Of a stretch of 64,000 nt of DNA, positions 8,778 to 48,965 are shown piece after piece. Each line of letters begins with the position of its first letter. Positions within the stretch are counted from its first letter, which is position 1. The position numbers and the translations under genes are program-made. The stretch is taken from NCBI GenBank assembly GCA_037893245.1, contig JBAIAA010000416.1:434001-498000 (forward strand), given 5' to 3'. Source of the stretch: Crossaster papposus (Eukaryota > Echinodermata > Asteroidea > Velatida > Solasteridae). Under the pieces are notes generated by a model. It was not told where the DNA came from, did no database searches, and saw only the letters and a list, made by a program, of their open reading frames with translations.

Positions 8778-10922
8778 CTACATTTTCGAATCCAATGCTT
8801 TGGCAAACATGTTGATGGGCAGAGGGAAGATGATGGTAGAGTTCTTCTCGGCCGCGATGGAGTGAAGTGTCTGGAGATAACGGAGCTGGAGGGCGCTGGG
8901 AGACTCAGCGATGATGTCAGCAGCCTCCTTCAGGGCGCGGGAGGCGTTCTGCTCACCCTCCGCAGCGATCACCTAAAACGAGAAAAGCATAAAGTATGAA
9001 ACGATAGTTACGCTGCCACCAACAACTTGTTCCAACGTTCTATTCGCATGCAGCACCACGTACATGTTACACAGCCACGATAGCACCAATACAAAAAGAG
9101 CTGGATAAGTTACAGAACTAAGTCGCTGGGTTAAAATTAGCTTGACAGCCCGAATGAAAAGCGCAGCTGATTTATGTGACAGCATCAAACCATAATCTTC
9201 TCAATCATCTAATCAGATCGTCAAGATGTGACTTCTTACCTTCGCACGCGCCTCTCTTGACGCTTCAGCCTCGGCGGCCATGGCACGCTGCATCTGTCTT
9301 GGAAGGCGCACGTCCTTACTGTAGTAAACAAAATATATCATCACAATAACTGGTAAAATCCAACTTTTGAGGACCACTGTAACTTTGTGTTCCAGAAAGC
9401 AGAAATAGCCTAACTTGCTTTGTATATCCTTAATCACACTTACATCTCAACTCTCTCTACTTTGACGCCCCAGGGATCGGTAGCGGTATCTAAGATCGAC
9501 TGCAGGGTGTTGCTGATCTCGTCCCGGTGGCTCAACACCTCAGCCAGGGTCTTGGTGCCCAAGACGTTACGCAGGGTGGTAGCGGCAAGGAGCTCCGTGG
9601 AACGCTTGTAGTTCTCCACGTTGATGATCGCCATGGTGGGGTCCTGCACGCGGAAGTAGACCACTGCGTCTACAGTCACGGTCACGCTGTCTTTGGACAG
9701 GACCTGGCAAGAGAAATAACAGTTAGGAAAATTATGAACATCTCACCATAATTGTATTAACATTGGAGAATAGTAAATCAGTCTCATACCTCCTGGGGCG
9801 GCACATCAAAAGATAAAGTTCTAAGATCCACCACTTGAATCTCATCAATGCAGGGGATGATGAAGAACAGACCGGGGCCCTTGGGTCCTCCGGACACCAG
9901 TCGACCGACTCGGAACAAGATGGCTCGCTCGTACTCGGTAATGGTCTGAGTATAAATTAAATAATAAATAGAAAACTTGTAGAATCTGCACCGAGTGGAA
10001 GTTTTTACGGTATTCAAATTTTCTAGTGAGATTTTCGGTTGAAGACGGAGCTGCTTCGAAGACGCATGTTCCAAAGATTTACGACTGTCATGAAATTAAA
10101 AAGGGTTGTTCAACTATGCTGTAATTTTGTTGTTGTTAAGTAATACCAGGTTGATCACAATCTTTTTTAACTTTACTTGTTTTACATGACCATGTCTTGA
10201 TCCTATAATCATATATATTTTTTTTTTTTTAATTCAGAAAGTAAACAAAACAACAAACTTATTTTGTAAGTTAATTTGTCTGGAGGTAACGTCAAGGCAA
10301 CAAAAAGAAGCTCACCTTGAAACAAAACCAGATAGTAATTGGGAACGTCAGACTGATGAAAAGAACAGAGAAGAACCAGAGAATGTAGGTGCAGCATGAC
10401 ATTCCCCCAGTATCTGGAAAAAACGTCGAATATATACCATTATTATGTGTTGAAAATTACCAGTCAAACCACAGAGGTAAGGTCGACAGAAAATATAACC
10501 GAGATAAACTTGCTGTGACGTAACTGACATGTCGACCATAAGTTAAGTACGAGTTTTTGGTGTCAAGTTAATCAATCGGGCCACGACAGGTGATGGAAAG
10601 TGATCACAAAATGTGAGCCTGTACAATGATGGTTGGTGAATTTTAAACAGCACATAATTGTCATAGGCCTACTTTATATAGGATATTAGACCAAGCGATT
10701 CCACACAATTCGGGAAAACTATATGGCTCCTTCCCGAAGCACAAAAAAAGGAAACACTTCAAAACGAAAATGCTCCAGGCGGTCAATGGTTGTTGGCAAT
10801 TTCTCCTGTCATTGGTATTACTTTTTTTTGACGGGAATAACCCACCTACCGTTTCTCTCCTGCTCGTGAAACCGTTGGCCTCCCGTGTCCTCGCGTTTGG
10901 CTCCGCTAATGCCTGGCTCCAT
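8778..10922 (-). CDS. STOM: Stomatin-like SPFH membrane protein, copy A
   Basis: Stomatins are monotopic hairpin proteins of the inner leaflet. They oligomerise in cholesterol-rich membrane and tune channels such as ASIC/DEG-ENaC (MEC-2 in worm touch neurons). Coding exons, minus strand: 10922-10850, 10413-10316, 9945-9790, 9703-9444, 9318-9240, 8972-8778; 861 nt, 286 aa. A short polar N-terminus (about 24 aa) leads to a hydrophobic hairpin (about residues 31-57) containing [12 protein letters not shown], with Cys at its start (SCCTY). The SPFH domain follows ([32 protein letters not shown]), then the [16 protein letters not shown] helix and the conserved [18 protein letters not shown] tail. 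It ends in an unusual [11 protein letters not shown] instead of DLLSGYM. It is the last copy before CPSF4. Exon 4 is about 96% identical in DNA to that of copy C. Confidence 0.95.
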
Positions 10923-11348
10923 GTCTGCGTTCGTTGTTGATGTCACCAGGGGAATTAGGTGTTCTGATTCTAGTTTAGTCATGTGAGCGGAAAAAAAACT
11001 ACTGTATGGAATACGATGAGATTAGGAGAAACTAAATTACGAAATCAAAGTACAGCTGCTGTCCAGATAGCTGGCTATCGGACTTTGATGTTTGATGGGT
11101 TGACGGAGCACACGATATACATCCACACAATGCAGTCAAACAAACTTTTGGTTTGTATGTTTTTGTAAGCCAGACTTATAATTATAACCCCTTCAAGCTA
11201 AATCAATGAGGAGGATTTCTTTTTACCCCTTAATAGCAAGGTGATGGTATTCACGTGAGCACTGACTAATGTTCCCCTTTTATTTTCGCATGCTACTATA
11301 AACGAAAGCATTAACCGAGAACAGTATCACAAGGACCGGAATAACACA

Positions 11349-11356
11349 TGACGTCA
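11349..11356. promoter_or_regulatory. CRE-like palindrome upstream of copy A
   Basis: A perfect TGACGTCA (CREB/ATF consensus) lies 427 bp upstream of the copy A ATG. A second perfect site lies upstream of copy B. Function is only inferred. Confidence 0.25.
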
Positions 11357-17585: not shown

Positions 17586-20500
17586 TTACTTTCTGTTCAT
17601 GTATCCAGACAGCAGATCAATAGGCAGCGGGAAGATGATGGTGGAGTTCTTCTCAGCCGAGATGGAGTTAAGAGTCTGGAGGTAACGAAGCTGGAGGGCG
17701 CTAGGAGACTCAGCGATGATGTCAGCAGCCTCTTTCAGGGCGCGGGCGGCATTCTGCTCACCCTCCGCAGCAATCACCTGATCATAGGAAAAGAGTCGAC
17801 TTAAATGTTGTAAATGAACCTATTGCATTATTTTTGTTGTATGGATTCCGTGCGCAATTACTAACTCAATAATGACAAGCAAGGTGTAGAGTTGTAGTCA
17901 AGTACATTCCGAGTACCAGCTTAACTTCCAGATATTAGGATGATTTGGTATGGATTTATAAAGCTGCATAACACAGACACTAGACAGTAAATACCTTGCT
18001 AAACAAAGTGAAGACTTTTTACAATTATAATCTTGTGTGAATTGAGCTTTTAGGTCAAAAGCTTTCCGTATGTCCTTGATCAAGTACTTTTTGAAATACT
18101 CGGAAAGTACTCGACTACAACTCTGGCAAGGTCTCTAGGCTGCAGGTTTGTTAGGGTGCGCTTGAGTAGCTCACCCGGATCGACTCGGGCAAATGCCACG
18201 AAAGCCATGCTAATTGAACGCTCAAACACGGGTCATCACACGATCCTCACGTGATGTTCATAGCCGCAGTCATAGCCATTGACAAAACACTTGATTTACC
18301 TTGATTTACTGCTTTTCCGTGAATCGAAGTAAAAAAACACCAACGCCGGGCTGGAATAACCACTTTTTAAAGTTGCAATGAGGTAAACAAAATAATAGTC
18401 TTGTGTACTCTTGCACTTTGATCTCAGACATTTCGAGCATATAATGGGAGTTAGCCAGCAAATTTAGAGACTTGCTCTCCAGAAACCACTGAGCATTTAA
18501 CACCTCAGCTTCCAACCACTGCTGAAGAGAGTAAAGGGAGCCTGTCTCACCTTTGCACGAGCCTCCCTGGACGCCTCAGCCTCAGCAGCCATAGCACGCT
18601 GCATCTGTCTCGGAAGACGAACGTCCTTACTGCGATCAAAACGACAAGAAAACAGTGTCACATCGAGAGAGGCCTAGTGGTTAGGGTTAGTGACTCGTAA
18701 TCAGAGGGTCAGGGGTTCAAATCCAGCTGCTTTTCCACATGTTGTGTCCTTGGGCAAGCCTCTCCCCAGCCGGGAGTATAAATGAGTTCTGGCGTTAGGC
18801 ATAAAAAAAAATGTTATGTTGGCGTAACGGGCCCAAATAAATAGGGTAGGTAGGTAGGGTTTTTTTTTTTTTTTTTTTTTTTCTCCCAGCAATGAAAATG
18901 ATATGTTTTCTAATTGTTTAAGCCGGTAGTGATACACGATAGCGTGTCCAGGTTCAATATATACACAATCCACACACACAACAATGAGAAACGGTCAGAA
19001 ATGGTTTCAAACGTATTTATAACTAGATTTATATAGATTTTAATCATTAAATTTCGTCCCTTGAAAAAAAATTATCCAGGGTCGGGTTACGCCAACATAA
19101 CTTTTTTTTTATGCCTTAGCTGGAGATAGTCTAGTATCCCATCCAGGGGAAATGAAAATATTCTCCATCATTACATGGCAAGTAAATTGGAGTATAATTC
19201 TTTCCTGGGTTCAAAACAAGCTCTCTTTCAGAGGAATGCCATTAGGCACAACAAGCTGTGGTTGCCCTTATTGTAATTGTAGAATTTGTACTAACGTGGG
19301 CGTGACCTAAATTTTGAAGTCGGAAAAAAGTGTCACCTTCAGTCTTGCCCTTTTCATCTGTTTTCTTGAAAGCACTTTTTAAACTAGATTTTCAATTGTA
19401 CGTGTTCATTAAATTGTTTAAACATTTTCTTAAATATTAAATTCTAAATCACGTGAATTTTTTCTCAATTATTTGTAAGATTTCCTTATCCCTAACACTG
19501 CCAGATGCAGTGTAAACAAGTCTGGTGCACTTTGATGCATTCAGCTAAATGACCACAGTCTAAAACTATGAGAGCTAATTGAATAATGCCAGAGATGGAT
19601 TCTGCTTAGTTGGGTGACCGCAGACTCTGGAGCAGTTTGACCTTGAGATTTCTGACCTGATGAATCTCGCTTCACTGGGCAGGGTTGTCACTTTGACAAA
19701 TGATAAAGTTTGCTGCGTGTGGCAGGAAACTCACAGAATACCCTGTGGGGGTTAGGGTTATTGGGCCAACTTACATCTCAACTCTCTCTACTTTGACGCC
19801 CCAGGGATCGGTAGCACCATCTAAGATCGACTTCAGGGTGTAGCTGATCTCGTCCCGGTGGCTCAACACCTCAGCCAGGGTCTTGGTGCCCAAGACGTTA
19901 CGCAGGGTGGTAGCGGCAAGGAGCTCAGTTGAACGCTTGTAGTTCTCCACGTTGATGATCGCCATGGTGGGGTCCTGCACGCGGAAGTAGACCACTGCGT
20001 CTACAGTCACGGTCACGCTGTCTTTAGAGAGAACCTGAAAACAAGCACCACGAAACCGGGGAAATAGAGCGAGTGGTGAAAACCCATGATAAAACAGGGC
20101 AACTCAAGTTTGCAAGACTTAATAGAAACCTGAAAAGCTTGGAGAATAACACAAAAAAGTTCCCTTGCAACCTGAACCTTGGTTACATTCTTATATAAAC
20201 AATTGGCGCAAACAGCTACTTATTAACTCCTTGATGCCAGTAAAAACGACATCTTATTTCTCACTGCACTAGATTATAGGCATGAGTGCACAGAAGCCTT
20301 TGTCTAGTAGCTGCACTGCACAATGGACCGCGAGTGCAGCTGCCTCACAGGCCGTGTTCTACAGCATAGCACAGCAATCCTGATGGATTAGCAGGCCACA
20401 GCTATAGCCACTCTCCAGCAATATGTGGTTAATTCACTCATGAGTAGAACCCTATTGGCAAAAGATAAATTACACACTGGTCCCTAACTGTTACTTATTT

Positions 20501-22260
20501 TGAAGAACTCATTTCTCGTTACCTCTTGCGGTGGCACATCAAAAGAGAGAGTCCTGAGATCAACGACGCGTATCTCATCGATGCATGGGAGGATGAAAAA
20601 CAGACCGGGACCCTTGGGTCCCCCAGCCACCACACGACCAACTCGGAACAAAATAGCTCGTTCATACTCTGCAACAGTCTAGAATTTACAAAGGGCATTT
20701 TCAGAGAGAGAAACAAAGGGAATTTTTTTTTATATTCAGACATCTCTTTTTGTTAGGCTGAGAAAGTCCCAGCTATTACCACAAACAATGCTTACATTTT
20801 GAAAGTTTGGAGAACACTTTTGGGGAATGGGAAAACTAGCGATATAAGTTTTGCCTTGACAATACAGGAACTTAGATGATACCCAGATATGAAATTCTTT
20901 CTAAAAACAGCTTTAGGAATCCAGATAATTCTTTTGAAAATCTTGGTTGACCTTAATTGTGATTATTTATAAAAGACAAAAATAGCGTCAGGTTGCAACA
21001 TTTTTTTCTTTCTATACTGGTAAAAATGGGGAAACTTACCTTGAAACAAAACCAGATAGTGATTGGAAATGTGCAAACAATAAACAGTATGGAGAAAAAC
21101 CAGAGAACCCATGTACAGAAAGACATGCCATCAGGTTCTAAAATATAAAACACAGAAAAAAGTTATTCAGAATTTGTTTCAATCATCTTAAATTCTTGGT
21201 ACCAGTTCAGACAGGGTTCTGGACTGCTGAAAATCATGCAAAAAATATTCAGGCCAACTTTGCTTACTTTTAAAACCAATTTTTAAGGAGAGTTTTCTTT
21301 GACATTTTACACTCAAGAGTAAAGCCACATGGTTTCATTTTGAAGATTAAGGAAAATCTTTCTTTAGAGACCAGTTTCATTCACCTTTTACCCGACACTC
21401 AAAATGAGGTGAATATCTAATGAGCCCCTAAGTGATCACCTGACCTCGATGCTAGAGGGCCCTGTACAGATCTAAGATGGCATTATCCACAAAAACGACT
21501 GCGCAATATCCGTAGCCGTAGCCATTCGACAAATAACAACGTTCAGTTAATACATACATGGGCAACTCGTAACTGTAAAGTTAATAAATGACAATATTCA
21601 ATTGATAATCAATGAGTGCGAGCTGTTGTTTTTATCGAAAAGCGTATGTGTGAGAAATTACTGTACGCGGTTTAGGGTGCAGCGCAGGATCGGCCGCGTA
21701 CGCATGCAGACTTGTACATTGTACGCGCACTGGAGATATGAAAACACCACACCAGCAAACGAACGTCGTTAATAAGCTGTTTCACAGTAATACAATACAT
21801 AAACATGCGCCATCTTGTTTACTGGGCAAATTTACATGCATTGCTGTATACGCATCGTTGATCGAAAACCTTTGCGCTTCCATTCCAATTCATCATGCGT
21901 TCTTTCCTAAATGTGCGCGCGTCTAGCAACGAGTGTTCTTTTTTTAGCCCCGGGAATAAGATACCCTGAAACACCTTATTGTCCAATCACAAAATGACAA
22001 TACTAGAGCTATTGCGCAGTACAGTGCGAAACGGCTTATAATAAAAATGTTAAATAATTAACCAGTCAAGACAAACCTTGCTAAATTAGTAAATGGTATT
22101 GCTAGACAGTCATGACACTAGACTGCAGTGGGAATGTTTATAAACTAGAGCAAAGAAATCCTAGCTTACCAGTTCTCTCCACTGGGTACAGACTCACTCG
22201 CTGCTCACCACTAGCACCCGTCAAGCTCGTGCTCTGTTTTGCTCCGTGATCTAGCTCCAT
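17586..22260 (-). CDS. STOM: Stomatin-like SPFH membrane protein, copy B
   Basis: Coding exons, minus strand: 22260-22170, 21137-21040, 20678-20523, 20034-19775, 18629-18551, 17777-17586; 876 nt, 291 aa, TAA stop. The N-terminus ([20 protein letters not shown]) is about 30 polar residues. The hairpin ([13 protein letters not shown] ... [11 protein letters not shown]) keeps the Cys matching the palmitoylated Cys30 of human stomatin (from memory). SPFH core [14 protein letters not shown], helix [16 protein letters not shown] and tail [15 protein letters not shown] are all intact. Intron 4 carries a SINE with a second element nested in it, plus the repeat at 19490-19757. A CRE and a TATA-like site lie about 180-200 bp upstream. 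Exon 4 differs from copies A and C at only about ten positions. Confidence 0.95.
18668..19160 (+). mobile_element. tRNA-derived SINE interrupted by a nested MITE
   Basis: An A-box-like GGCCTAGTGGTTAGGGTTAG and a B-box-like GGGGTTCAAATCC are followed by CCTTGGGCAAGCCTCTCCCC and GGGAGTATAAATG. The body is then split by the element at 18798-19115 and continues after 19118. It lies about 40 bp from the exon 5 acceptor in intron 4 of copy B. Copy E has a SINE of the same family at the matching place. Confidence 0.75.
18798..19115. mobile_element. PIF/Harbinger-like MITE nested in a SINE
   Basis: Inverted ends GGCATAAAAAAAAATG / TTTTTTATGCC extend into a second inverted block, TTATGTTGGCGTAACG / GGTTACGCCAACATAA. 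The element is flanked by TTA on both sides (18795-18797 and 19116-19118), the 3-bp target duplication usual for PIF/Harbinger MITEs. It contains a long poly-T run. Confidence 0.75.
19490..19757. mobile_element. CCCTAAC-terminal foldback element, copy with TTAT flanks
   Basis: Starts CCCTAACACTGCCAGATGCAG and ends CTGTGGGGGTTAGGG, with TTAT on each side (19486-19489 and 19758-19761). Internal blocks GGTGCACTTTGATGCATTC and TGTCACTTTGACAAATG recur at 36976-37201. It lies in intron 4 of copy B. The terminus resembles telomere repeats only by chance. Confidence 0.7.
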
Positions 22261-24442: not shown

Positions 24443-24462
24443 TATGAGACCGGAGATGGTTT

Positions 24463-27248
24463 TTACTTTTTGTTCATGTATCCAGACAGCATATCGATCG
24501 GCAGCGGGAAGATGATGGTAGAGTTCTTCTCGGCCGAGATGGAGTTAAGAGTCTGGAGATAACGGAGCTGGAGGGCGCCAGGAGACTCAGCGATGATGTC
24601 AGCAGCCTCCTTAAGGGCGCGGGCGGCATTCTGCTCACCCTCTGCAGCGATCACCTGAAAAGATTTGATAAGAAGACAAAAAGTGAAACCTCGGATAAGA
24701 TTATATTTTGGTGTTAAATCTCCTAGCTGTCCTCGTAGGTAATACGTTTGAGTTGTGGAATATTCTAGTCGGTTATTTTGATCTTAACGACTCACCTTTG
24801 CACGAGCCTCCCTGGACGCTTCAGCCTCGGCGGCCATGGCACGCTGCATCTGGGTCGGCAGACGAACATCCTTACTGTTTTGAAAAAACAGAAACGAGAT
24901 ATCGCATTAGATCTTTGTCTTCTATGAACAAAATTAGAGATGAAATTGCGGTAAAGGGCCAAACAAGCTTTTTCATTGTGCTGAAGTTCCCGCAAAGTCC
25001 TTAAACTTACATCTCGACTCTCTCTACTTTGACGCCCCAGGGATCGGTAGCACCATCCAAGATCGACTTCAGGGTGTTGCTGATCTCGTCCCGGTGGCTC
25101 AACACCTCAGCCAGGGTCTTGGTGCCCAAGACGTTACGCAGGGTGGTAGCGGCAAGGAGCTCAGTGGAACGCTTGTAGTTCTCCACGTTGATGATCGCCA
25201 TGGTGGGGTCCTGCACTCGGAAGTAGACCACTGCGTCTACAGTCACGGTCACGCTGTCTTTGGACAGGATCTGAAGACAAGTTTTGTTTTCAGAAATTTT
25301 GTAGTCATGATGAAAATATTTTGTTTTTACTTGGTATCTGTTTTGTGTGGAATTCATGATTAAGATTGGAACGTTTATCCTCCCTTCAGGTTGTTGATTT
25401 CCCTAAAGCTCTATAACAAAACGAATTGCAAACATATGCAGAAAACTGCCGCAGGGACAGCTAGAAAAAGTTTGTGTGGTAAATTGTAACAGATGTTGTA
25501 CGGAGCACGTACGGAGCCCCTTGTTGACTGTGAACTCTTTCAGCTTGCGCTCCGGAAACAACATCCGAAAACGAGCTCCGGAAGAAACAATACACTGCTT
25601 AAAAATGGTTTTCTTTTGTTTAGATACGCAGAAAGGGTTTGGCCAAATGTCAGAAGGGTGGGTAAAAGTAGCCAACTCTTTTGTAAGACGTTGTCTTTCA
25701 AGCCAGGTGGCAGACTCAGACTGAGTTCAGTGAGTGAGCATCTATCTTTGAGAACCCAGTAAAGTTGATAATAACGTTGTGCTGAAACTAGCTTACTTGT
25801 CAAGTCTAGAAGTTTTGCATTTGGCAATAAATTGGACAATGACCCTAAGACAGTGCCAAGATGTACTTTTGCAATTATGAGTTTGGTGCTGATTCTGGGA
25901 TACATATAATGCTTCGATGGATAAGTCCTTATTATACCTCCTGGGGTGGAACATCGAAGGAGAGTGTCCTAAGATCCACCACTTGAATGTCATCGATGCA
26001 GGGGATGATGAAGAACAGACCAGGGCCCTTGGGCCCCCCGGGCATCAGTCGACCGACTCTGAACAAAATGGCTCGCTCGTACTCGGCGACAGTCTGCAGT
26101 AAGAGTGAAAGGAGTAACAACTTATAATAAATGATAACGTTTAGGGATTTAAGATTTCACAGAATTTGTTTCAATTTATTTCAAAGGTAAACAAAATTCA
26201 AAATAATAATCGCAGGTGAAATTTGCTAATGTTGTTTTTAAAGAAAAAAAAATCATACAAATTATATATGATCTCAAAAAAATAAATACTTTTCTTTTTT
26301 ACCAATTAAAACAAAAATAGTTTCCCAGTTTTCTGTATAGTATCAGATCAACATGTAATTGTGATAAATGAACTCACCTTAAAACAAAACCAGATCGTAA
26401 TGGGGAACGTGAGGCTGATCAACAAGATAGAGAAGAACCATAGAACTATGGTGCAAAATGACATGCTATCGCGCTCTGGAAATAGTACAAATCAAATCAT
26501 TAAATGGTTTGTGTGAAGAAAAACAAAGCACCACAAAATAAAGGCCCACACTGTACAAAATAAAGTCACGCAGCCTAAAAAAGGTGTTTTTTGGATTATT
26601 ATTATTATTTATTTATTTTGATAATTGCGGCAATAATTAAATGGTTAATGATTTTATATTTGCCATATTTACTATATTTACCCCCCCCCCCCCCCCTCTC
26701 CACAAGATAAGCATTATTCAAGCACCCAAACCTATCCCAGGGACTCAAACAGTGGCATAAAATAGCCCACCACATATTTGCCTCCCCCTTGTCGGAGGGT
26801 CGTACCCTTGGGCCCCATGTGCCCCAAATTTGAAATTTCGAATTGCATACAAACATGGAGAAATAAGAATACTACAGCCATTGCCATTTATGCCACCATG
26901 AAAAATTAATTGGTGCCACGCCATTTTCCCCCTAATTACAAATTGAACTCTTTGCCATAAACAGCATTGCATTGTCTTGTCGTATCGCAAACACTGATGC
27001 TAAACAGTACGCTAATTTCGAACATATATTTACCATAGACATGGAGGGAAAAAAACTCCATGTCTATGGATTTACGTCAACAAAAAATGAACTGTTGCAT
27101 TAGCTGTATTACTATTGATTATTCTGTACATTTGTAAATTGTACATGTAGTACTTACCATCAGCATCACTCTCATATCGCGTGGCGCCGGCTGATGCACC
27201 ACTTTTCGTTCGTCCACGGGACGAGTCACCACCAGGTTCACGCTCCAT
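24463..27248 (-). CDS. STOM: Stomatin-like SPFH membrane protein, copy C
   Basis: Coding exons, minus strand: 27248-27158, 26475-26378, 26093-25938, 25270-25011, 24874-24796, 24654-24463; 876 nt, 291 aa, TAA stop. The N-terminus ([20 protein letters not shown]) is polar and Ser/Arg-rich. The hairpin reads [13 protein letters not shown] ... [12 protein letters not shown], with the N-terminal Cys kept. SPFH motifs [18 protein letters not shown] and FDVPPQE, the [16 protein letters not shown] helix and the [15 protein letters not shown] tail are intact. All splice sites are GT-AG, with the same phases as the other copies. The 3' flank contains a 20-nt match to the last codons and stop region of copy F. 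Promoter motifs were not recognised. Confidence 0.95.
26681..26699. repeat. Poly-C tract
   Basis: Run of about 16-17 C followed by TCTCC, in intron 1 of copy C. Confidence 0.9.
27033..27069. repeat. 14-bp-arm hairpin in intron 1 of copy C
   Basis: CCATAGACATGGAG and its exact complement enclose a 9-nt purine loop. It shares the CATGGAG core with the palindrome at 22551-22580 near copy B. Confidence 0.85.
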
Positions 27249-31765: not shown

Positions 31766-34307
31766 TTACTGGGGCCTGTCCTTGTTCATGGATCCAGAGA
31801 GAAAATTAAGGGGTAGTGGTAGAATGATGGTAGAGTTCTTCTCGGCTGAGATAGCCTGAAGTGTCTGGAGATAACGGAGCTGGAGGGCGCCGGGAGACTC
31901 AGCGATGATGTCAGCAGCATCCTTCAGGGCGCGAGAGGCGTTCTGCTCACCCTGCGCAGCAGTCACCTGTAAATATCAAATAAAATCTTGAACTTCAGAG
32001 TTGTAATCGAGTCAGTCACAAGTCACCACAAGTCACCACAAGTCAATCACAAGTCATTAAGTCTTTAGTCAACTCACGTACTTGGGAAGTTTTAACTTTT
32101 TACCTTTGCACGAGCCTCTTGCAACGCTTCAACCTCAGTGACCATGGCAAGCTGTATCTCCGGTGGCAGACACACATCTTGTCTGTTAAACAATCGATCG
32201 TCACTTGATTAATATTTGGAATAAAGAGTCCTACTGAAAGAATCGTCAAAAGGTTGTGTATGGCTTTCCACCGTTCTCTCAAAAAGTGTATTATCCACTA
32301 AGCTGAAACTTCAACAGGTTAGCTTTTAAACATTCCTGTTTGGGGGTTTGTGAGTTATTAAAAACAAATGCAAAGACTTGAAAAAACCTACATCTCTACT
32401 CTTTCTATTGTGACGCCCCAGGGTTCCGTAGCTTCATCCAGCATCCAGCACAGGTTACTGGTGATGTCTTCGCGTTGATCCAACACCTCCGAGAGAGTCT
32501 TAGTGCCCAGGACATTGCGCAGGGAGGCAGCAAAGAGCAGCTCTGTAGCGTACGTGTAGTTTTCTACCTTGATCGTAGCCAGGGTAGGGTCGTCAACGTG
32601 ATAGAAGACTGATGCTTCCAAACTGATGGCTACACCGTCCTTGGTGATGAGCTACAGAGACACAAACAAGTACTCTGTTTTATTACTAAGGGAATACAAA
32701 TGTGGTTGGCCGGTTTTAAACAAACATGTATGTACTTTGAAACCGGCCCATGAGCTGGTTTTAAACATACTTGTTTAATACGGCAAACTAGGGTTAAGAG
32801 GTAGTGTGAAAACAGCTAGGGTTAGGGTTAATAATGCCTACCTCTTGGGCTGGGGCCTTGTAAGATACAGTCCTGAGGTCCACCATAACGAAGTCATCCA
32901 GGCAGGGGATCTGGAAGAATATACCAGGCCCCTGGGGCCCCCCGGGGAACAGACGACCTCCTCGGAAGGTCACGACTCGTTGATAGTCCCTAACTTTCTG
33001 CAGTCAAGAGAAGTACATCACCAGGCAATTAATTCACATCACAATACTAAACAAGGATCTATGACCCAAGTTTGATTGCAATTGAACTTCAAGTTTTCAG
33101 ATGAGACAAGTTTTACAATTCAAGCCTTTTTTAGAAATTGCCCTCAAATTACCTCATTGCTTGACCTTTTGACACAAGCATCATATAAAGGTTACAAAAT
33201 TGCATGCATGGCCTAAGTTTAAAAGTACATGAAATTGGACTTCAAGCTACCAGTTTGCATATATAATTTTTTTGAAACTAAATAAAATGAGACATACAGA
33301 CGGAGTGCATTTAGTCTATAGGGCGGGAAGGAGAGTGAAATACATGGACCTCATCTAATTTATTATGCTACAAGGATCAAGGCTTTTTTTTCACTTTTAT
33401 TTTACACCATTACTTGGTGTAAAAATAGCGACTGCCAATAATTTCTACCAGTTGACAAAAGTATTGTCCTTTTCAGCATAAAGAACAACAGCTTTAAAAT
33501 TAAAGACTGAAAATAATAAGGAATATCAAAATTTGATATTTTGGGGCAAATGAATGTTGATAATGCACATTTACCTTGAAGCAGTACCAGATGGTAAATG
33601 GAGCACTGAGAAACAGCAGAAGTATGGAGAGAGCCCACAAGAGATACAAGGGGAACGAGACTGGCCCTGCATGATCTGTACCAACAAGAACGAATTAAAC
33701 AAGTAAACAAGGGGATGTTGGAAGTTTAGTGGGGCAGATAAGAGAAATATTTGGGGGAATTGTGCCTTTGATGACACAAGCATGGAATTAGGCACACAGT
33801 CAGAGTATGTCATGAGAAAGATACGAACAATAGGACCATCACAGATTCCTCCTTTTTTTTGTTTTTTAAGATGTTCACTTTTAAAGGCAACACTACACTG
33901 AAAAATATTTTGCCTACGTTTAATTATTAAACTATTTCTTAACAATTTCTAAATATATTGGCCACCGGACAATAAGACTGCTCTTGAAGGGTGTGCTGGT
34001 TCCCAACCCCACCAGTATCAATATAATGTACAGACCGGAAACCAGCTAATCTTATTGAGGCCAAAACAAAAACCTAACATTTTTTAGAGGATTAAAGACA
34101 TCTTTAAAAGGTTTTTGTTGGAATAAAACATACAAGTTCAACATGCATTTGTTGAAGAGCACAGAAAATGCAATTGTACAATTACACAGATATTGCTGAT
34201 AACTTACCAATATGATTGGGCCTAGGCTTGAAGCCGGGGTCAATTTTGATTTGACCGGTTTTCTCAAGCAGGATTGTTTCCACTTCTATCTCCACCTTAG
34301 CAGACAT
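31766..34307 (-). CDS. Divergent stomatin-like protein, copy D
   Basis: Coding exons, minus strand: 34307-34208, 33675-33575, 32997-32842, 32651-32392, 32182-32104, 31966-31766; 897 nt, 298 aa. Frame and splice sites are intact, so it is probably expressed, but much of the protein departs from the family. The hairpin (FPLYLLWALSILLLF ... APFTIWYCFK) lacks the Cys that the other copies have at its start. The SPFH start is [17 protein letters not shown] instead of [13 protein letters not shown], and the segment before exon 4 is YKAPAQE instead of FDVPPQE. The exon 5 helix reads LAMVTEVEALQEARAK instead of [16 protein letters not shown]. The last exon is by contrast almost like the other copies ([21 protein letters not shown]). 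A changed partner or loss of membrane targeting is possible. Confidence 0.92.
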
Positions 34308-35715: not shown

Positions 35716-36059
35716 AGGTAGGACACCATTGGTAATTGCTTGAATTATCATTAATGGGTGGATTTGGGGGGTTGTATTTTATAATAAATATCGTTTAACT
35801 GACCTGTCTGAAGTTTTACAGTCATTGATGCCAAGAAAAGCATGAAAAACAGCGTTTGTTTTCAACCGGGGTCGAGCAGTTACTCTTATGTAATCTTTGT
35901 TTTTTCGCGATCGCTCAGTGTCCGGATCAATTACAGGATATCTAGCGCAAATCATTTTGCTGGATGCCTAGAATCATTATTTACTTTCAAATAAGTAAGA
36001 TATTTCTTAATAATTCGGTAGTAAATATTTTTAATATCTGCAAATGGTATATCCTACCT
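35716..36059. mobile_element. TTAA-flanked MITE, copy 1
   Basis: 344 bp between perfect TTAA duplications (35712-35715 and 36060-36063), with inverted ends AGGTAGGACACCA / TGGTATATCCTACCT. Body matches 46404-46777. TTAA duplications suggest piggyBac- or Kolobok-type mobilisation. Confidence 0.85.
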
Positions 36060-36975
36060 TTAAATACAGGGTGTCCCTGAGGATCATATACTTCAGGAAT
36101 AGTCTATCGCTCTAATCAGCTTCGGACACATGTTATAATCAGGTCTTAAATATCTTTTTAAATATGGATAAGTTGGCAAGAAATTGGAACTAAAACTTAT
36201 GTTGCTCTCCCTCAGTTCTTGAGAAAATTTGATATTTTTTTCTCCTAATGAATATACATTTTGCATGTTTTCTTTTGGAAATTTGCAACCCTCAAAAATG
36301 GCTTTTCTTTGGGTTGCTTTGGCACCTGTAACATACAAAGGAAGTTCCGTTTCAGTTTTAATCAATATTTGTGTCTGATTTCAACAGACAATATGAAATA
36401 TAAATAAACAGGAATATAAAGCTCATTTTGGAATTGGAGGAACAACCAAATATGCACAGCTTATGTTAGGAAGTACTCAACAATTAGCAAAACACACAAA
36501 GTACATATAATGACCAAATTCGGGTTTTTTTTACAAATAAAGAATGCACTTATCTCAAGCTGTTTTAGAAAAATGGTATTAAATATTAACTGTTAACTAT
36601 TAAGTGCTTTCAGACCTAAGTGTCATACATAAGCACCACAAATACAATTCTAGACAAAAAGCCCCCAAATGCCCAGGTATTTGTACAAGAACTCAAAATC
36701 AAGTACAAGGTTGTTTGTTTTTTGAAAAACAATGTCAACTTTTTTTTCTTGCCGGTGCCAACTGCGTGTGTAAATTCTCACAGTTCTACTCTGTCGGAAC
36801 AACTTTGAAATTTAGTGGTCAGGCTAGATCATGATCATGCTTAATGGTCTTCTAACCAGCCAATTACAATGCAAAGGTGCAACACTGCTGACCCTACATT
36901 GCCATTGCAAAAGTTAGATAACATTTCGTATTGCGAATCAATTCAATTACGGCACATTTTAATTATAGTTTTTAA

Positions 36976-37454: not shown

Positions 37455-40400
37455 TTAACTAATGGAGGGCTTGGGCATATTACCGGGATAGTCTTCCCTG
37501 GCCTTACGACCCTTGTTCATGTATCCAGACAGCAGGTCAATCGGCAGAGGGAAGATGATGGTGGAGTTCTTCTCAGCAGCGATGGAGTTAAGTGTCTGGA
37601 GATAACGGAGCTGGAGGGCGCCGGGAGACTCAGCGATGATGTCAGCAGCCTCCTTCAGGGCGCGGGAGGCATTCTGCTCACCCTCTGCAGCGATCACCTG
37701 ACAGACCACGACAAATAAAAATATCAAATCTATGCCAATGGGTCTCTTCTCGACACATTGTCGTGCTTCCTGAAATCAAGTGCAGGTCCCAGTTCTAATG
37801 TCAGATTTATTTTACCTTTGCGCGGGCCTCCCTGGAGGCTTCAGCCTCAGCAGCCATGACACGCTGCATCTGAGTTGGCAGACGAACGTCTTTGCTGTTG
37901 GAAACAACACGAAATTCGGTATAATTTAAACAGGCAGAACATGGGCTAGTGGTTATTATTGGGGTTTGTGAGTTATGATCAGAGGGTCAAGGGTTCGAAT
38001 CCTGCTGCTGGCCATATGTTATTATTTAAATTATTGGGCCACAGCGGCAGAGGGTGAGAAAAGAACCGCTTTGCCAACCTGACTCCCATTGTGTTCTTGG
38101 GCAATCCACTTTACCCCTACTTGCCTCTCCATTAAAAGTATAAATGGGAACAAGCATTATTGGAAGTAACCTGCGATGGAGTTGCATCCGATCAAGGAAG
38201 ACAAATTAAATGTTCTCTGTTGTGCTTGTCCTGGGTGGTTTAAATAGCAATTGCAAGCTTTTTGCGTTAACTTACATCTCGACTCTCTCTACTTTGACAC
38301 CCCAGGGATCGGTAGCACCATCCAACAGCGACTGCAGGGTGTAGCTGATCTCGTCCCGGTGGCTCAACACCTCAGCCAGGGTCTTGGTGCCCAAGACGTT
38401 ACGCAGGGTGGTAGCGGCAAGGAGCTCAGTGGAACGCTTGTAGTTCTCCACGTTGATGATCGCCATGGTGGGGTCCTGCACGCGGAAGTAGACCACTGCG
38501 TCTACAGTCACGGTCACGCTGTCTTTGGACAGGATCTGAAGATTCAATTCAAATAGTGTTTACCCAAATGAAAAAGAAATACTCAAACCACAATGGTCAT
38601 GAAAAAAACATTGATGGCTTCTGACAAAATGCGTCTCTGAGACACAACTTTGCGCTTTTCATTATTTTCTTCAAGATGAAAGCATGCTAGAAGGAATAAT
38701 TTTAGACTCATTATACTATCTTTACATTAATGTTTGGATAGTTGCAAAAGGTATACTGTCCCTTTAATGCAGTGAGCCCCCAATAGTGACTATATAAACA
38801 GTGAATTACCCAACAAATAGTTTCAAGTCTTCTCCCAACCTTGTCCAATATTACACAGTGTCCTCAATATTATTATTCCCCCAGGAAATAGTCTACCTCC
38901 TGGGGTGGCACATCAAATGACAGCGTTCTAAGATCCACCACTCGGATGTCATCGATGCAAGGGATGATGAAGAACAGACCGGGACCCTTGGGTCCTCCTG
39001 GTAACAGACGACCAACTCGGAAAATAATCGCCCGCTCGTACTCCGCGACAATCTGGAGTCAGTAGAAGGAAAAAACAACAATAAATAAGCGTAATTATCT
39101 GACGATATTGCAATGGAGTCCATATGGGCTAGCACTAGGGCCAATATGACTGAACTCTGTTACATTTATATTAACTCTAACCCTACATGTAGGGTAAATA
39201 ATGATGAAGCATCATACGTGATACAGAGTCGTCAAAAGAAAAACGGAATGGTCTATTTTTAGTATCCTCCTATAAACAAAAATACTAGTCTTAATGGACA
39301 GGGAATCTTTCTAGAAAATAAATATGATACCAAGTTCAACCGTTTCGGTTTAGTAGTTTTCATTCCAGAGGCCTCTTTCTGGAACTTAGTGGGTGAGGGA
39401 GGGGTAGTGTCTGAAGCGCGAAAGAAATGAAAAGGCCTGCCAATTTACCATCGACTTGGTTCCAGCAAAGGTCCCTAAAATGAAAACTACTGGGCCGAAT
39501 TGGGTGATCTTGGTATCATTTTTCATCTAGAAAGATTTCCCGTCGTCTATCCAAACTAGTTCTGGTCGGAGGGTACTGTTAATAGGCCGCCCCGTTTAAT
39601 TTCAAACCATCCTGTATATGTGTACCTTAAAGCAGAACCAAATGGTGAAAGGGAAAGTTAAGGTCACCAGAAGAACAGAGCAGAACCAGAGGACATAGGT
39701 ACAACCTGACATTGTGTGCCCATTGTGATTGTCTGTAGGATTAAACACAGAAAATCAGTTAAGGATATGACAAATTTTAAGTTTTTGTACTTATAATAAA
39801 TAAGCAATAAACATTTTGAATTTGTACACCAATATTACCAATTTTTTTTTTTTTCCCTAAAGCTATTAGTAGTATTAGAAACAAGATACATGTAAATGCA
39901 TATATAGGTTCGTGTGGTTTTTCCGCGCCGATTAATATGCATATCCATATCGCCATCCATGGATCACTTGGGGTCAAACTATCAGCCAATGAACTGAGAG
40001 GTCGTCAAAAAGGTGATAATTCCCAAAATTTTCTCGTATTTTTTCAACATTTATATCATTCCAACACTGTTTTAATCATAATATACAATCTGAGTATTAG
40101 TCCTTTATAATCAATTCTATAGAGAAATTTAGTCATGAAGGCCACTCAGATTTCTAATTTTAAGTCGCTAATTTGAAGTCTACTTAAAAAAAAAATGGAC
40201 AATGCGCCCATCTACTGAGTACTATATACAAAATTGATGTAGGCCTATACATTTACACGCACATTGGCTTGGTCAGATTTTACGAAACAATAGGCCGATG
40301 TTTCGTTGCATATACAAGTAAGGGATTATGTAATACTTACTAGGGAGATTTTATGGGATGCTCTGATTGGCTTATATTGGACTGGCCTTCTTTCAACTAG

Positions 40401-40552
40401 GTATATAACTATAATGTAGTAATAGTATAGGTGCGAATAGTATAAAATTGTTCTCCTTGTAAAACCTGTGATATGCAAAACTTACCCCCCTGTATAGTAT
40501 TAGTATCCCGATCACCTTGACTTGTCCTGTATCTTCCTGTATTGGTCTCCAT
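37455..40552 (-). CDS. STOM: Stomatin-like SPFH membrane protein, copy E
   Basis: Coding exons, minus strand: 40552-40486, 39732-39626, 39052-38897, 38535-38276, 37894-37816, 37697-37455; 912 nt, 303 aa, the longest copy. The N-terminus ([20 protein letters not shown]) is short and polar. The hairpin [13 protein letters not shown] ... [12 protein letters not shown] keeps the first Cys. The SPFH core is [18 protein letters not shown]. The helix reads [16 protein letters not shown], with Val for the usual Ala. The family tail [14 protein letters not shown] is extended by about 17 residues ([18 protein letters not shown]). Intron 4 carries a SINE at the same place as in copy B. Introns and exons follow GT-AG with the shared phases. 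Confidence 0.95.
37935..38230 (+). mobile_element. tRNA-derived SINE in intron 4 of copy E
   Basis: GGGCTAGTGGTTATTATTGG and a B-box-like GGGTTCGAATCC are followed by TTCTTGGGCAATCCACTTTA and AAAGTATAAATGGG. The head begins about 40-45 bp from the exon 5 acceptor, as in copy B. Confidence 0.75.
39285..39560. repeat. Foldback element in intron 2 of copy E
   Basis: GGGAATCTTTCTAGAAAATA and ATGATACCAAG on the left pair with CTTGGTATCATTTTTCATC and AGAAAGATTTCCC on the right. An inner pair, TTTAGTAGTTTTCATT / AAAATGAAAACTACT, also matches. A related structure may lie at 47600-47830. Confidence 0.65.
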
Positions 40553-42986: not shown

Positions 42987-43373
42987 AGGGATCGTATACG
43001 TTTGGTAATTACTCCAAAAATTAATGGCAATTAAAACTTACTTGGTAAGAAGTACAGCAGCTTTGGATAGTATAATGCATTTTTAGAAACTTTTCACTTC
43101 GAAGTACTGCGGTTACGGGAAAAGATATCACTTTTTAGCCCAACAAATTTGAATCTGAGAAGCGTTACTACAGTGACGTTTCTCAGACTGTGTATTCCAA
43201 TGCAGATTATTCTTCCTGCGTGGACATAACCGCTCCAGATTTTCGGCAAAATTTCGAAATCGCTACCACCTTTTGAAATGAAATTTTTCCAGGTTAGTTT
43301 TATGGTATATATCTACAACTATATAGGATTGAAACAAACAATGGGTTCCAATTACCAAACGTGTACGATCCCT
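42987..43373. mobile_element. TTAA-type MITE, second family
   Basis: Inverted ends AGGGATCGTATACGTTTGG / CCAAACGTGTACGATCCCT enclose 387 bp. TTAA precedes the left end (42983-42986); the right flank is TTGA, probably a mutated TTAA. Confidence 0.8.
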
Positions 43374-44205
43374 TTGATATAAAGATCAATCTGGATTCTA
43401 ATCCACCCTTAATTCACCGATTTTAATTCATTTCGACCATATGGATATAATTGAAGACGGAGTTCATGACGACAAAAGACGATGTAGTCAGTAACTAACA
43501 CAGACCTTAGAGAGTGAGCAAGTCTGGGTAAAAAGGAATACAATATATAATTGGGAAAAAAATATCAAAATAAAAATATTACAAAACATAAGACAACAGT
43601 TTCAGATTCTGATATTGATTTCCACCCGTCTGTGAAATAAAATAAATTTAATGCAAATGCAAATTAATGCATAATACAAGTGAATAGCTGGTTTTATATG
43701 GCTGATAAATAAACACTGTATAAGTGGGTGCATATAATTAACTACAACGTGTATATTCAATATGATTATCGTAGAGGAAAATCAATGGGACAACAATTTA
43801 AAAGTCACCCGTGTACACATTAAATGCTAACAGTAACAGACTACAATAAAATGACGTTTTGACAATCGCTCGGTCCCACCGCCCATACTTGGCGCAAGCA
43901 GATGCGCTTTACATATTTCTGTGAAGGAAACGCACGGCATTCTAGGTAGGGTATCGTGACCATAGATATTATAATTAATACGTATTGCACACAGCGCGCG
44001 CAGCTGAGCAGCGGCGGAACTGGCGACATTCACTAGTCACACGTCACCCAAAATATATTCAATCACAGCTCAAATTTCGCAGCAGCGCTTCTCAGCGCAC
44101 AGTATATAGGCGGTTGGACCGAGCGAAGTTTTGACATGGTTAACTTGACACCACTGTAAATTAAGCCACGCTTCTTCGTTCTTTTGGCAAATCCCGTTTA
44201 TAGAA

Positions 44206-47200
44206 CTATTGTTTATTTATGAGACCGGAGAGCAGATCGATCGGCAGCGGGAAGATGATGGTAGAGTTCTTCTCGGCCGCGATTGAGTTAAGTGTCTGAA
44301 GGTAACGGAGCTGGAGGGCGCCGGGAGACTCAGCGATGATGTCAGCAGCCTCCTTAAGGGCGCGGGCGGCATTCTGCTCACCCTGCGCAGCGATCACCTG
44401 TTTTGTAAGAAGTTGAAAAACGAAGTTGCGTCATAAAACGCATCCTTGTTAAATATCACGTCTCCAATGTCTATATGGAACCCGTGTAACCGATTTTAGA
44501 CGGTTTTACAACCAAAGGGTGAAGATAATGCGTCCAATCGAGTTTTTGGTCAGGATTACCAACAGACTTTTGGTTTGCAAACCAATTGTATTGATAAACG
44601 CAACCAGTTCGTGGTTTTGAATGGATAGTTTTGACCAAAAGATAAGTCAGGGCTCCGTGGTCAAGGTAACCATGCAGTAATCGTCAAAACTCATGAAAAT
44701 AATATTGGCTAAACCCATGGGTTCAGGTATAACTGAAATACTGGTTGAAATAGCCAAAAGTAATGCGACCAAATAAAGTGGTTTAACCAATGTGTTGTTA
44801 GCCTCAGTTGACGCACCTTCGCACGGGCCTCCCTGGACGCTTCAGCCTCGGCGGCCATGGCCCGCTGCATCTGAATCGGCAGACGGACGTCCTTACTGTA
44901 ACAAACGAGGGAGTACATGTACATTAAAAGAGTTATTAACGTAGTGAAATGTGAAAAGTTGAAAACAAAAATTCACAAAAACTTGAGCTAAACATGAACA
45001 TAAACCTAAATGAACAAAAACGTTCATCAGACTTACAGAAGGCAGTTGTGAAGCTTACTTTTTTTTTTTCGTTATTCATATTATTTTGGCCTAACTATGG
45101 ACATAAGTTCTGATGTTATTTATTAAAATTAAAGCTTATAATTTTGTCAATTCAGCGCTTAGAAACACTTGTATTAAGCGCTATATTTATTATTATTATT
45201 ATTATTATTAGTATCGTTTGAAGCTAGTGCTGGTGCATGAAAACTTTCATCTCTGTGAAAGCTGTAGGCTATATTTTGAGAAAATGTGATTTTTGGGTTG
45301 AAAAAAACGGCGACAATTTGTCGGACCTTAAAATCGTATACATGTACTGCGATTGGTCAATTTTTTTAAGGGATGTGGCCTAATGACAGGTAGGTAGTGT
45401 CTGTCAAATTAACAGGGCACACCATGAGAACTTACACTTCGACTCGTTCTACTTTGATACCCCATGGGTCGGTGGCATCATCCAGCTGAGTTTTGAGTCC
45501 GGCGCTGATCTCGTCCCGTTGGCTCAACACCTCAGCCAGGGTCTTGGTACCCAAGATGTTACGCAGGGTGGTAGCGGCAAGGAGCTCCGTGGAACGCTTG
45601 TAGTTCTCTACGTTCAACACGGCCATGGTGGGGTCCTGCACGCGAAAGTAGACTACTGCGTCTACTGTCACAGTCACGCTGTCTTTGGACAGGATCTGCA
45701 AAATAAAGTTGTGCGCGCGTGCCATTTTCAAATTCAGGTAAAGTAAAATTTATAAGTGGTGACCCGCGACGATTACCGATTAATACTGACATTAATAAGG
45801 TTTTTTTAAATTTTCTTGAGTTCATTATTGAGATTATCCATGATGTAATAAAAACCCCATAACCAAACAAAATTGTTATGACAAAAGCGCGAACTCAAAA
45901 TACAGACGCCCTGTTTCGTTAGTCATTATGGAAAGGGTGGTTTTCGGGACAAATTTATACAGCAAATGAAACTTTGTTTTGGCTCATGTCGGAATCCTTT
46001 GCTACATAAATAACTCATAATTTCCTTTCGTGATGTGACAACAAAATATTTCTAGAGGTCAGACAAAGGAACCCACTTCTTGTGGCGGTACATCAAAGGA
46101 GAGAGTCCGGAGATCGAGGACTCGGAATTCATCGATGCACGGCAGAATGAAGAACAGGCCGGGCCCCTTGGGACCACCCGGCAACAGACGGCCAGCCCGG
46201 AAGATGATCGCTCGCTCGTACTCTGCAACCGTCTGGCAAAAAGTCAAAAGTGATCTGGCGACTGAATTATTCTTTAAAAAGCTTATTTGGATTAAAGATC
46301 GAACTGGTACTGAACTCCTTGTGAAATTATTACGTCTGGTTTGCTGTCATTAGAAGAAAATGATCATAGATCCTACAATCCAACATAACTGGGTATTGTT
46401 TAAGTATAGGATACACAATTGGTAATTGCTTGAATTATTATGAATGGGTGTATTTGGTTTTTTTTGGGGGGGCTGCATTTTATAGTAAATATCGTTTAAC
46501 TGACCTGTTCGACGTTTTACAAACATGGATGCCAAGGAAAACAAGAAAACCGGCGTTCGTTTTCAACCGGCGCCGGGCAGTGGTTATTAGTATGATGTTC
46601 TTGGTTTTTCTCATGATCGCCGTTTTTAATTAAAATTCAATTTTTCGGAACAATTATAAGATATCTAGCGCAATCATTTTGCTGGATGCCTACAATCATT
46701 ATTTACTTTTAAATAAGTAATTCCTTAATAATTCGGTAGTGAAAATGTTCGATATCAGCAAATGGTGTATCCTACCTTTAATCTGCACTTATTGCCCCCA
46801 ACATAGGAAATTAATAGAGCATGAGATTCAAGATGTACCGTCCAGCAAATTGCCGGGCTGAATTAATCGTGTGCATCAAGGACAACCCGCTCTGCCTTAA
46901 GTGCTTGGTATACAAACATTGCCAGATTGTTTGTCCCTTGTGCATTATAATGGGCCTCGCTTTCTCATGACTCCTTATGCATAAATTATTACAGTAATGA
47001 ACAGGCTTATGAAACCTCGAATCGCAGGCACCATTTTATTGTTTAATCGTGCGAAAAGTCACCATTATAGCCTTGTTCGCGCGCACAGAACGAAAGCGTT
47101 TTTCCCGTTTTTATTTTGTCCCCTTTAATATCCCACTTTGACCAGAAAGTAATGCATATGAAAAGTTTAGGGCCTTCCCTGAAGAAACAAATTAAATGCG

Positions 47201-48965
47201 AGAAAACAAACTTGAAAAATTGACCCCTGTATACATGGGCCAATTTAGCTTCTGGCCTTACTGCGCATCAATATCTTGTGACTATTTTAGCTGCGTGCAT
47301 CGGCGCTTCGACTTATATTTCTTGAGAACTAGACCAACCTTGAAACAGTAACAGAGAGAAAACGGGAGCGTGAAGACGAATAGGATATAGGAGAGGACGA
47401 CTAGGACACTAGTCGCGCATCCTGGGCCATCCTGTGCCTCGTTTGCTGATATAAAACAAATAAAGAAAGAAGCGATAAAACGAATCGGAATATGACGAAA
47501 GCGCGACCATGTATAATAGGTCAAATAAAAACGGCAACATTATACTTCCAATATCCATGAACCTAAGCCATTGATATATGGATAGGACATTTTGTTAAAA
47601 GAAATATTATACAAGACCTATGCCGAAAGTGGGTTTAGTAGTCTCGATTCCAGTGTCATTTTAGAGAACCAAGGTCAGGGCGGGTTATGTTAACTACGAT
47701 AATCCTAAATTAGAGCTCCTAACAATAGTTCTAGAAAATGGCGCTGGAATCAAAACTACTGCACCTAAATCTTTGGATGGGAATTTATCACAAAAGGTAT
47801 TTGGTAAAACCTCCCATAAAATTGAACAGAAACTTAAAGATGATGAAATAAGCTTTAATTTTATGTGTGTCTCAAACTTCTTAAAGAGTTAGAAGTATTG
47901 TTTTTCCTGAATTTTGGAAGTGGACGTTTTTATTATTGGGATTAAAGTTTGTTATCATCGCATGGTCATTGTAATGGTTCTACATATTGACTATAGTCAA
48001 CTGAAACGTCCATTATAAAAGGGAAATGCATGGTTGAGTAACTTTAGTGTAGAGCAGATCGCCTTGGCAAAAAAAGAAAAGATGACATAGGCCCCTATTG
48101 TTGACTTTGGTACTCGGCACCATTATGGTAATTTTTGACAGAAAGTTTCAGTGCACGTAATTCAGTTTGTTCGCAGTGTATTGTTGAAGTGGCCATGGCA
48201 CCGTCCTCGGTAGCATTGTGTAGGGATCACACCACAAAAAGCCACCGCACAGTGCCAACAAAATAAATGCCAGCCATGTAAAGCTGATGGGGTTGGTTGA
48301 TGACAATAATATGATTGTTGACAGCCAGCGAGGCGTGCAGTCGTGCAAACATATGCGCTATGCGTCTTCTAAGAGTACACAAAGTGGCAAAATCACATCA
48401 GGAAACTGTTTGATTTTCATGCAGTCTGATCACTAATGGTATAATTAATGATCTAATCCAGCCATGGAGGCTCCATGGTCCAGCCCAAACAGCATGAATC
48501 AATGGATCGATAATTCGATGAATCTATGATTCGATGAATCTATATATCATGATTCGATGATTCGATGAATCGATGAAACACTGGTTTTAATGACATGTCC
48601 AAATACAGGATAATTAGAGTACTGTACGGAATGCACTAATTTTTAAGCAAAATACAAATTAGTGTATTTTTGTGTATAAAGTTCCGAGTCATACTGTTTC
48701 GGAGTACATGTACAACTTATTTTTAGAGAATCGAAAAATGATGTGATTGTTTTTAAGCTTGGAAACCAAGGGAGTCTTACTAACTTCTTACGATAAGAGT
48801 AACGCGACGTAATGTACAGTTTATGTTCGTAAAATATGACACATATCATTGGTGTCCCAGTGTTAACGTATATCGATGGTATCGTCAACCTATATAAAAT
48901 GAACTAAGCCATTATTGGTCGCAAGGCCACTTACCTCCATGGACACGGTTGTCACCACGCGCCAT
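44206..48965 (-). CDS. STOM: Stomatin-like SPFH membrane protein, copy F
   Basis: Coding exons, minus strand: 48965-48935, 47445-47339, 46232-46077, 45695-45436, 44895-44817, 44397-44206; 825 nt, 274 aa, the shortest copy. Exon 1 encodes only ten residues ([10 protein letters not shown]) plus one base, and was placed by its ATG and GTAAGT donor in the right phase. The hairpin ([17 protein letters not shown] ... [11 protein letters not shown]) differs most after copy D. The SPFH core [18 protein letters not shown], the helix [16 protein letters not shown] and the tail [15 protein letters not shown] are normal. Donors of exon 2 (GTTGGT) and exon 3 (GTGGGT) are weak but lie at the conserved junctions. 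An AATAAA overlaps the last codons (Asn-Lys) and may serve as poly(A) signal. Exon 1 is the least certain part. Confidence 0.92.
46404..46777. mobile_element. TTAA-flanked MITE, copy 2
   Basis: 374 bp between TTAA duplications (46400-46403 and 46778-46781). The body aligns along its length with 35716-36059: shared ATTGGTAATTGCTTGAATTA, CGTTTAACTGACCTGT and CATTTTGCTGGATGCCTA. It lies in intron 2 of copy F. Confidence 0.85.
48500..48580. repeat. Short tandem repeat of 'gattcgatga' type
   Basis: Eight or so imperfect copies of GATTCGATGA / GAATCGATGA in intron 1 of copy F. Confidence 0.8.

Follow-up and report, generated by a model that had tools for sequence, protein, structure and literature searches.

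Exon-Limited Homogenisation in a Tandem Array of Six Stomatin Genes of the Sea Star Crossaster papposus: A Probable Case of Interlocus Gene Conversion

Introduction

A 64,000-nucleotide stretch of the Crossaster papposus genome (C416:434001-498000, hereafter the window; assembly of 1.02 Gb in 1841 contigs) carries six complete stomatin genes, all on the minus strand and bracketed by CPSF4 and EIF3B. We number them g1 to g6. In four of them, g1, g2, g3, and g5, here called the core genes, exon 4 is nearly the same DNA sequence, silent sites included, whereas in exons 3 and 5 the silent sites have diverged far. This homogenisation is found inside the array and is absent when the array is compared with stomatin genes elsewhere in the genome, and therefore points to gene conversion. 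Our reading, which we hold to be very probable, is that the array is old and that interlocus gene conversion homogenised exon 4 of the core genes, part of exon 4 of g6, and exon 6.

Homogenisation of Exon 4

The exon 4 copies of the core genes lie, all on the minus strand, at window positions 9444..9703 (g1), 19775..20034 (g2), 25011..25270 (g3), and 38276..38535 (g5). They are 95.8-97.7% identical, the nearest relative of the g3 copy being that of g5 (97.7%). The corresponding ranges are 80.1-86.5% for exon 3 and 79.7-89.9% for exon 5. The proportion of silent sites that differ (pS) is 0.09 in exon 4, against 0.51 in exon 3 and 0.52 in exon 5, and the mean number of silent substitutions per silent site (dS) is 0.09, 0.90, and 0.99, respectively. 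Pairwise dS runs from 0.04 to 0.13 in exon 4, from 0.53 to 1.27 in exon 3, from 0.48 to 1.80 in exon 5, and from 0.20 to 0.38 in exon 6. Codons for the same amino acid differ in 27/486 cases in exon 4, compared with 110/276 in exon 3 and 54/137 in exon 5, and silent variation affects 8 of 79 codon columns in exon 4 versus 43 of 64 in exons 3 and 5 together (Fisher p 7.6e-13).

The identity stops at the exon edges. Exon 4 matches at 249-254 of 260 positions, while the flanking 24 nt match at 9-15 positions, splice sites counted. Beyond the edges, the introns are nearly unalignable between copies.

Comparison with Unlinked Paralogues

Four further stomatin genes, g7 to g10, are unlinked to the array and serve as the control; all comparisons are within this one genome. 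Core genes differ from g7, g8, g9, and g10 at exon 4 pS values of 0.54, 0.63, 0.77, and 0.73, and at exon 3 values of 0.68, 0.73, 0.75, and 0.67. Against unlinked paralogues, then, exons 3 and 4 show roughly equal divergence. It follows that exon 4 is not intrinsically constrained at its silent sites, and we reject such a constraint as the explanation. An earlier reading of the window, made from the sequence only, had taken the shared core as ordinary conservation. The core is indeed conserved, but the silent-site uniformity of exon 4 within the array, which does not extend to the unlinked paralogues, goes beyond that.

The ratio of silent differences within the core to those between core and unlinked genes is 0.106 for exon 4, 0.388 for exon 6, and 0.728 for exons 3 and 5. 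When codon columns were permuted, the exon 4 contrast was reached in 0/20000 trials and the exon 6 contrast in 2/20000. Thus, the homogenisation of exons 4 and 6 is concentrated in the array.

Proportional branch lengths across exons are rejected (likelihood ratio test p 9.5e-5 to 6.8e-7, with three trees tried). The best exon 3 tree is rejected by exons 4 and 6 (p 0.0026 and 0.013), and the best exon 6 tree by exon 3 (p 0.001). A run-length test on all six genes, g4 included, gave 4/15 pairs at a global p of 0.0004-0.011.

Mosaic Tracts in g6, g2, and g4

The exon 4 of g6 (45436..45695, minus strand) is a mosaic, its middle being near the core four and its last third diverged. Compared with g3, codons for the same amino acid differ at 9/51 in mid exon 4 and at 10/19 in the last third (p 0.006), the change falling at about core codon 111. 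No such step was found for g4 or g7-g10 (p 0.24-0.78). The exon 4 of g2 begins with codons unlike those of g1, g3, and g5, which places a tract edge inside the exon.

Exon 6 involves a wider set of genes. In g6, its silent divergence is below that of exons 3 and 5 in comparison with every core gene (p 0.00005-0.013). The divergent member g4 has an unconverted exon 4 (pS 0.55) and is near the other copies in part of exon 6, with sliding pS of 0.09-0.24 over codons 168-203.

Gene Models of the Array

Searches by tblastn with exon 2-6 peptides recovered the full set of five exons in five genes; in the remaining one, exons 3-6 were found. Exon 2 of g6 and the first exons were placed by sequence reading and a donor-site scan. 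All six models run from ATG to stop with GT..AG introns. In each, exons 3, 4, and 5 measure 156, 260, and 79 nt, exon 1 has a length of 1 mod 3, and exon 2 a length of 2 mod 3.

Read from the 5' end of each gene, the exons are as follows. g1 (8778..10982) consists of 10982-10850, 10413-10316, 9945-9790, 9703-9444, 9318-9240, and 8972-8778, encoding 306 aa. g2 (17586..22260) consists of 22260-22170, 21137-21040, 20678-20523, 20034-19775, 18629-18551, and 17777-17586 (291 aa). g3 (24463..27248) consists of 27248-27158, 26475-26378, 26093-25938, 25270-25011, 24874-24796, and 24654-24463 (291 aa). g4 (31766..34307) consists of 34307-34208, 33675-33575, 32997-32842, 32651-32392, 32182-32104, and 31966-31766 (298 aa). 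g5 (37455..40552) consists of 40552-40486, 39732-39626, 39052-38897, 38535-38276, 37894-37816, and 37697-37455 (303 aa). g6 (44206..48965) consists of 48965-48935, 47445-47339, 46232-46077, 45695-45436, 44895-44817, and 44397-44206 (274 aa).

The six intact genes, their identical exon phases, and the fixed lengths of exons 3-5 had all been proposed by the sequence-only reading, and the rebuilt models agree with it to the base at both outer ends (8778 and 48965). The frame lengths it gave, 286, 291, 291, 298, 303, and 274 aa, are likewise reproduced, the 286 of g1 being the count from the second Met of the 306. The flanks are marked by a CPSF4 exon within an open reading frame at 5357..5779 (minus strand; E 3e-44) and by an EIF3B exon, also within an open reading frame, at 55306..55659 (minus strand; E 2.1e-26). 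With g1 and g5 as tblastn queries, no stomatin exon was found at E 1e-3 in the 10 kb beyond each window end. A DNA search of the genome with exon 4 of g1 returned at least nine matches, namely the six copies of the window plus three that are more diverged and lie on other contigs; among the matches listed there was no second copy of any of g1-g6.

Other Stomatin Genes, Introns, and Phylogeny

A genome-wide search with the last-exon peptide found 18 matches, comprising 10 full-length last exons and 8 fragments. Six of the full last exons are those of the array; the remainder lie on contigs C5 (g7), C578 (g8), C756 (g9), and C95 (g10). The eight fragments stand in series on C5 at about 2654061-2655469, just downstream of g7's intact last exon, and five of the seven steps between them measure 166 bases. 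Stomatin-like exons on contigs C682 and C232 look like those of STOML1- and STOML2-type genes, names that we apply provisionally.

The g10 gene differs from the others in structure. Its exon 3 region is split 73+83 (=156) and its exon 4 region 204+56 (=260), and the two introns concerned are missing from 9/10 of the stomatin-type genes found, i.e., the array and g7-g9. Vertebrate STOM and podocin genes have exons of 73, 83, 204, 56, and 79 nt. Because these lengths are shared, the split state of g10 would be the ancestral one, provided that the vertebrate comparison applies.

In a protein tree, g10 groups with human STOM (support 99), followed by g9 (100) and g8 (98). The array genes, together with g7, make up the remainder, beyond g8-g10 and human STOM, with weak internal support. 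The array genes do not come out as direct STOM orthologues in this tree, since g10, g9, and g8 join human STOM first.

Stomatins were described in the sequence-only reading as few and dispersed in most animals. This part is weaker than stated, given four more stomatin-type genes elsewhere in this genome and an account of many duplications and species-specific stomatin paralogues in invertebrates (PMC2258279). Those slipin expansions resemble the present case in the number of species-specific paralogues. They differ in that the main text of the account is without the words tandem, intron, and gene conversion.

Origin of the Homogenised Exons

We suggest the following course of events. The six-gene tandem array would be old, and since its duplication silent divergence would have become large in the introns, the hairpin exons, and both exon 3 and exon 5. 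Interlocus gene conversion, a form of ectopic recombination that involves no crossover, would then have repeatedly overwritten exon 4 of g1, g2, g3, and g5. It would also have acted on part of exon 4 of g6 and on exon 6 of g1, g2, g3, g5, and g6, with g4 affected in part. Diverged introns would block exchange and so confine the tracts within exons. The longest uninterrupted exon, 260 nt here and 204+56 in the C95 gene, would have been converted most, and exon 4 of g4 would have been too diverged to join the exchange. The degree of conversion may scale with exon length (260 > about 195 > 156 > 79).

The case leans on branch lengths and the unlinked control more than on topology, and several results weigh against it. 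Of the 105 topologies, nine are compatible with every one of the four exons, so recombination is not strictly needed to explain the exon trees. On the core genes alone, which have few variable sites in exon 4, the run-length test gave a global p of 0.72-1.0; with g6 added, the best value was 0.089. The contrast between linked and unlinked genes is imperfect. g7 is somewhat nearer the core in mid exon 4, where 66/200 codons for the same amino acid differ (exon 3: 93/175), and also in exon 6, at a pS of 0.38 against the core. One reading is that g7, the unlinked gene nearest the array, took part in older exchange before separation. For g4, the whole-exon 6 test is significantly low in comparison with g1 and g5, not with g2 and g3. 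Six short intron matches at E 0.01 or better exist between copies, the longest being 67 bp (g2/g5 intron 4, 77.6%). The homogenised part has a GC content at third codon positions (GC3) of 0.82-0.86, but GC3 is higher in exon 4 than in exon 3 in the unlinked genes too; as a sign of biased conversion, GC3 does not discriminate. Finally, the exon-length rule is based on four exons.

The best-surviving alternative, which we judge improbable, is lineage-specific purifying selection on the silent sites of exon 4 in the array, exerted through splicing enhancers, RNA structure, or an overlapping element, with no recombination at all. The near-uniform exon 4 DNA of g1, g2, g3, and g5 would fit, and antisense open frames 80 codons or more in length do run across exon 4 of g1, g3, g5, and g6. 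But the supposed constraint is lacking in g4 and g8-g10 and slight in g7, and g6 is conserved over part of exon 4 only, with the step described above. In addition, the genes that show the exon 6 effect are not the same set.

Under a second alternative, unequal crossing-over recurred as the array grew, breaking within exon 4 and leaving chimeric genes. Such exchange would use the same ectopic recombination machinery, and the best exon trees do differ between exons. Parents and chimeras would, however, share whole introns on one side of the breakpoint, and the introns share almost nothing, which makes this very improbable. An assembly artefact, with haplotypes collapsed or falsely duplicated, had been named in the sequence-only reading as a condition that could undo the array. 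The assembly is in many contigs, as noted, but the copies differ strongly in their introns and in exon 3, and none of the six copies turned up on a further contig among the matches listed in the exon 4 search; we find the artefact scarcely credible. A recent six-fold duplication without conversion, after which introns and other exons evolved fast, would account for the 96-98% identity of the four exon 4 copies and is rejected as next to impossible on the dS contrast between exons of the same four genes, a tenfold mutation-rate gap between exons a few hundred bases apart being unexpected.

Family Membership and Ring Residues

The array proteins are members of the stomatin family. A Pfam scan of three of the six found the Band_7 domain in g1 (1.6e-40), g4 (1.3e-31), and g6 (4.7e-39), at 110-140 bits against a curated cut-off of 23.6, and phmmer matched g2 to human stomatin in the PDB (9oh9, E 5.3e-117). 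Across 218 core residues, identity to human STOM is 55.5-72.5%. Like STOM, STOML3, and podocin (the slipins), the array proteins have, with the Band_7/SPFH domain, the hairpin proline ahead of it (P47 equivalent) and the C53 and C87 equivalents, each in 6/6 genes. At the level of residues only, the third palmitoylation-cysteine column, C30, is kept in 4/6. Here the array departs from STOM, with P in g4 and A in g6, the latter having a Cys one column earlier; the W51 column is conserved in 5/6 and is C in g6. It departs from the family also in being six linked genes with exon-limited homogenisation, and from STOM-type genes in being without the two introns of the closest STOM relative, g10.

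Among the core genes, exon 2 is the fast exon. The proportion of replacement sites that differ (pN) is 0.15 there versus 0.02-0.06 for exons 3-6. This accords with the sequence-only proposal that the family expanded locally, its members differing in N-terminus and hairpin around a conserved SPFH core. The ratio dN/dS (replacement to silent substitution) is 0.03-0.35 across exons 3-6, as means over comparisons, and the copies therefore look to be under purifying selection.

Human stomatin forms a 16-mer ring with named inter-subunit salt bridges, in which the residues E59, R70, R205, K220, E227, K235, E243, R251, and E262 take part, and stomatins are described there as single-gene homo-oligomers without pairing partners (PMC12344292). 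All nine residues are kept in g1, g2, g3, g5, and g6, and 7/9 in g4 (E59D, R205L). By resemblance to these residues and to the domain, the array proteins most likely form membrane-scaffold rings of the stomatin type, with a common SPFH core and differing N-terminal anchors. Mixed rings of array paralogues are possible.

The salt-bridge residues map to exons 3, 5, and 6, with none in exon 4. We therefore reject the idea that exon 4 was homogenised to preserve these published contacts. Because exon 4 holds no named salt bridge, its conversion is more simply seen as a by-product of exon length than as something selected for assembly. A bolder proposal, rather unlikely in our estimate, is a combinatorial scaffold. 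Conversion of exons 4 and 6 would preserve the interchangeability of SPFH core and cap/barrel and let five paralogues co-assemble in mixed rings; exons 1-2 would give each its own anchor; g4, with R205L, would be a modifying subunit; and the loss of two introns would have made the exons long enough for lasting conversion.

Other Features of the Window and Assembly

Two segments of g2 intron 4 resemble repeats. Positions 18671-18731, the site of the 67 bp match to g5 intron 4 given above, look by eye like a tRNA-derived repeat. At 19510-19760 lies an abundant dispersed repeat of about 250 bases that matched dozens of contigs, mostly at 76-89% identity, in a search with 3161 candidates of which 40 were scored. 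A repeat block occurs twice, at 35723-36063 upstream of g4 and at 46413-46781 in g6 intron 2, the copies being 81-96% alike piece by piece. Upstream of g6, at 49623-50375, is a minisatellite with periods of 68, 134, and 351 bases that leaves each of the three minus frames open over long stretches. A scan of the whole window against Rfam at gathering thresholds found one tRNA and nothing else, a tRNA-Thr (AGT) at 51556-51629 on the minus strand.

Elsewhere in the assembly, the 16,330-base contig C1841 carries COX1. Translation table 9 (AAA=Asn, AGA=Ser, TGA=Trp), the code of echinoderms and flatworms, gives a normal COX1 protein, and at seven of ten AAA codons listed asparagine is the residue usual in COX1; the mitochondrial code is thus in keeping with an echinoderm. 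Contig C8 (>5 Mb) carries an HflK/HflC-like pair and COX1-family frames without stops, at about 2.09, 2.87, and 5.21 Mb. It looks like a bacterial genome, from a symbiont or a contaminant, within the echinoderm assembly.

Known Parallels and Significance

Exon-limited conversion has precedents. In the copepod pair GOT1Sd/GOT1Sr of Tigriopus californicus, interlocus conversion is mostly exon-restricted and one intron is now unalignable (PMC3728101). The likeness to the array is conversion confined to exons beside unalignable introns. The copepod case differs in having two copies, one of them decaying, against six intact frames here, where single exons convert and adjacent exons do not. In African cichlids, a fragment corresponding to exon 3 was copied between the duplicated paralogues aqp3a1 and aqp3a2 (PMC7408487). 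This too is a one-exon fragment moved between duplicates, although in a single pair of fish aquaglyceroporins and a single exon. The same source names tandem duplication as the major mode of expansion of aquaglyceroporin channels in echinoderms.

Thus, invertebrate stomatin duplication (PMC2258279) and exon-restricted conversion (PMC3728101, PMC7408487) are known already. Among the literature matches listed, in a search that covered few subscription papers, none described stomatins in a tandem array or conversion between them. The combination of a stomatin array with exon-limited conversion, unlinked control copies, and two absent introns appears to be new within the literature searched.

The locus offers a natural experiment on gene conversion, with six linked and four unlinked copies in one genome and with converting and non-converting exons. 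Since exons can differ in history, whole-protein stomatin trees from such arrays may mislead. For the family itself, the array is a test case of whether homo-oligomeric stomatins can turn hetero-oligomeric via duplication.

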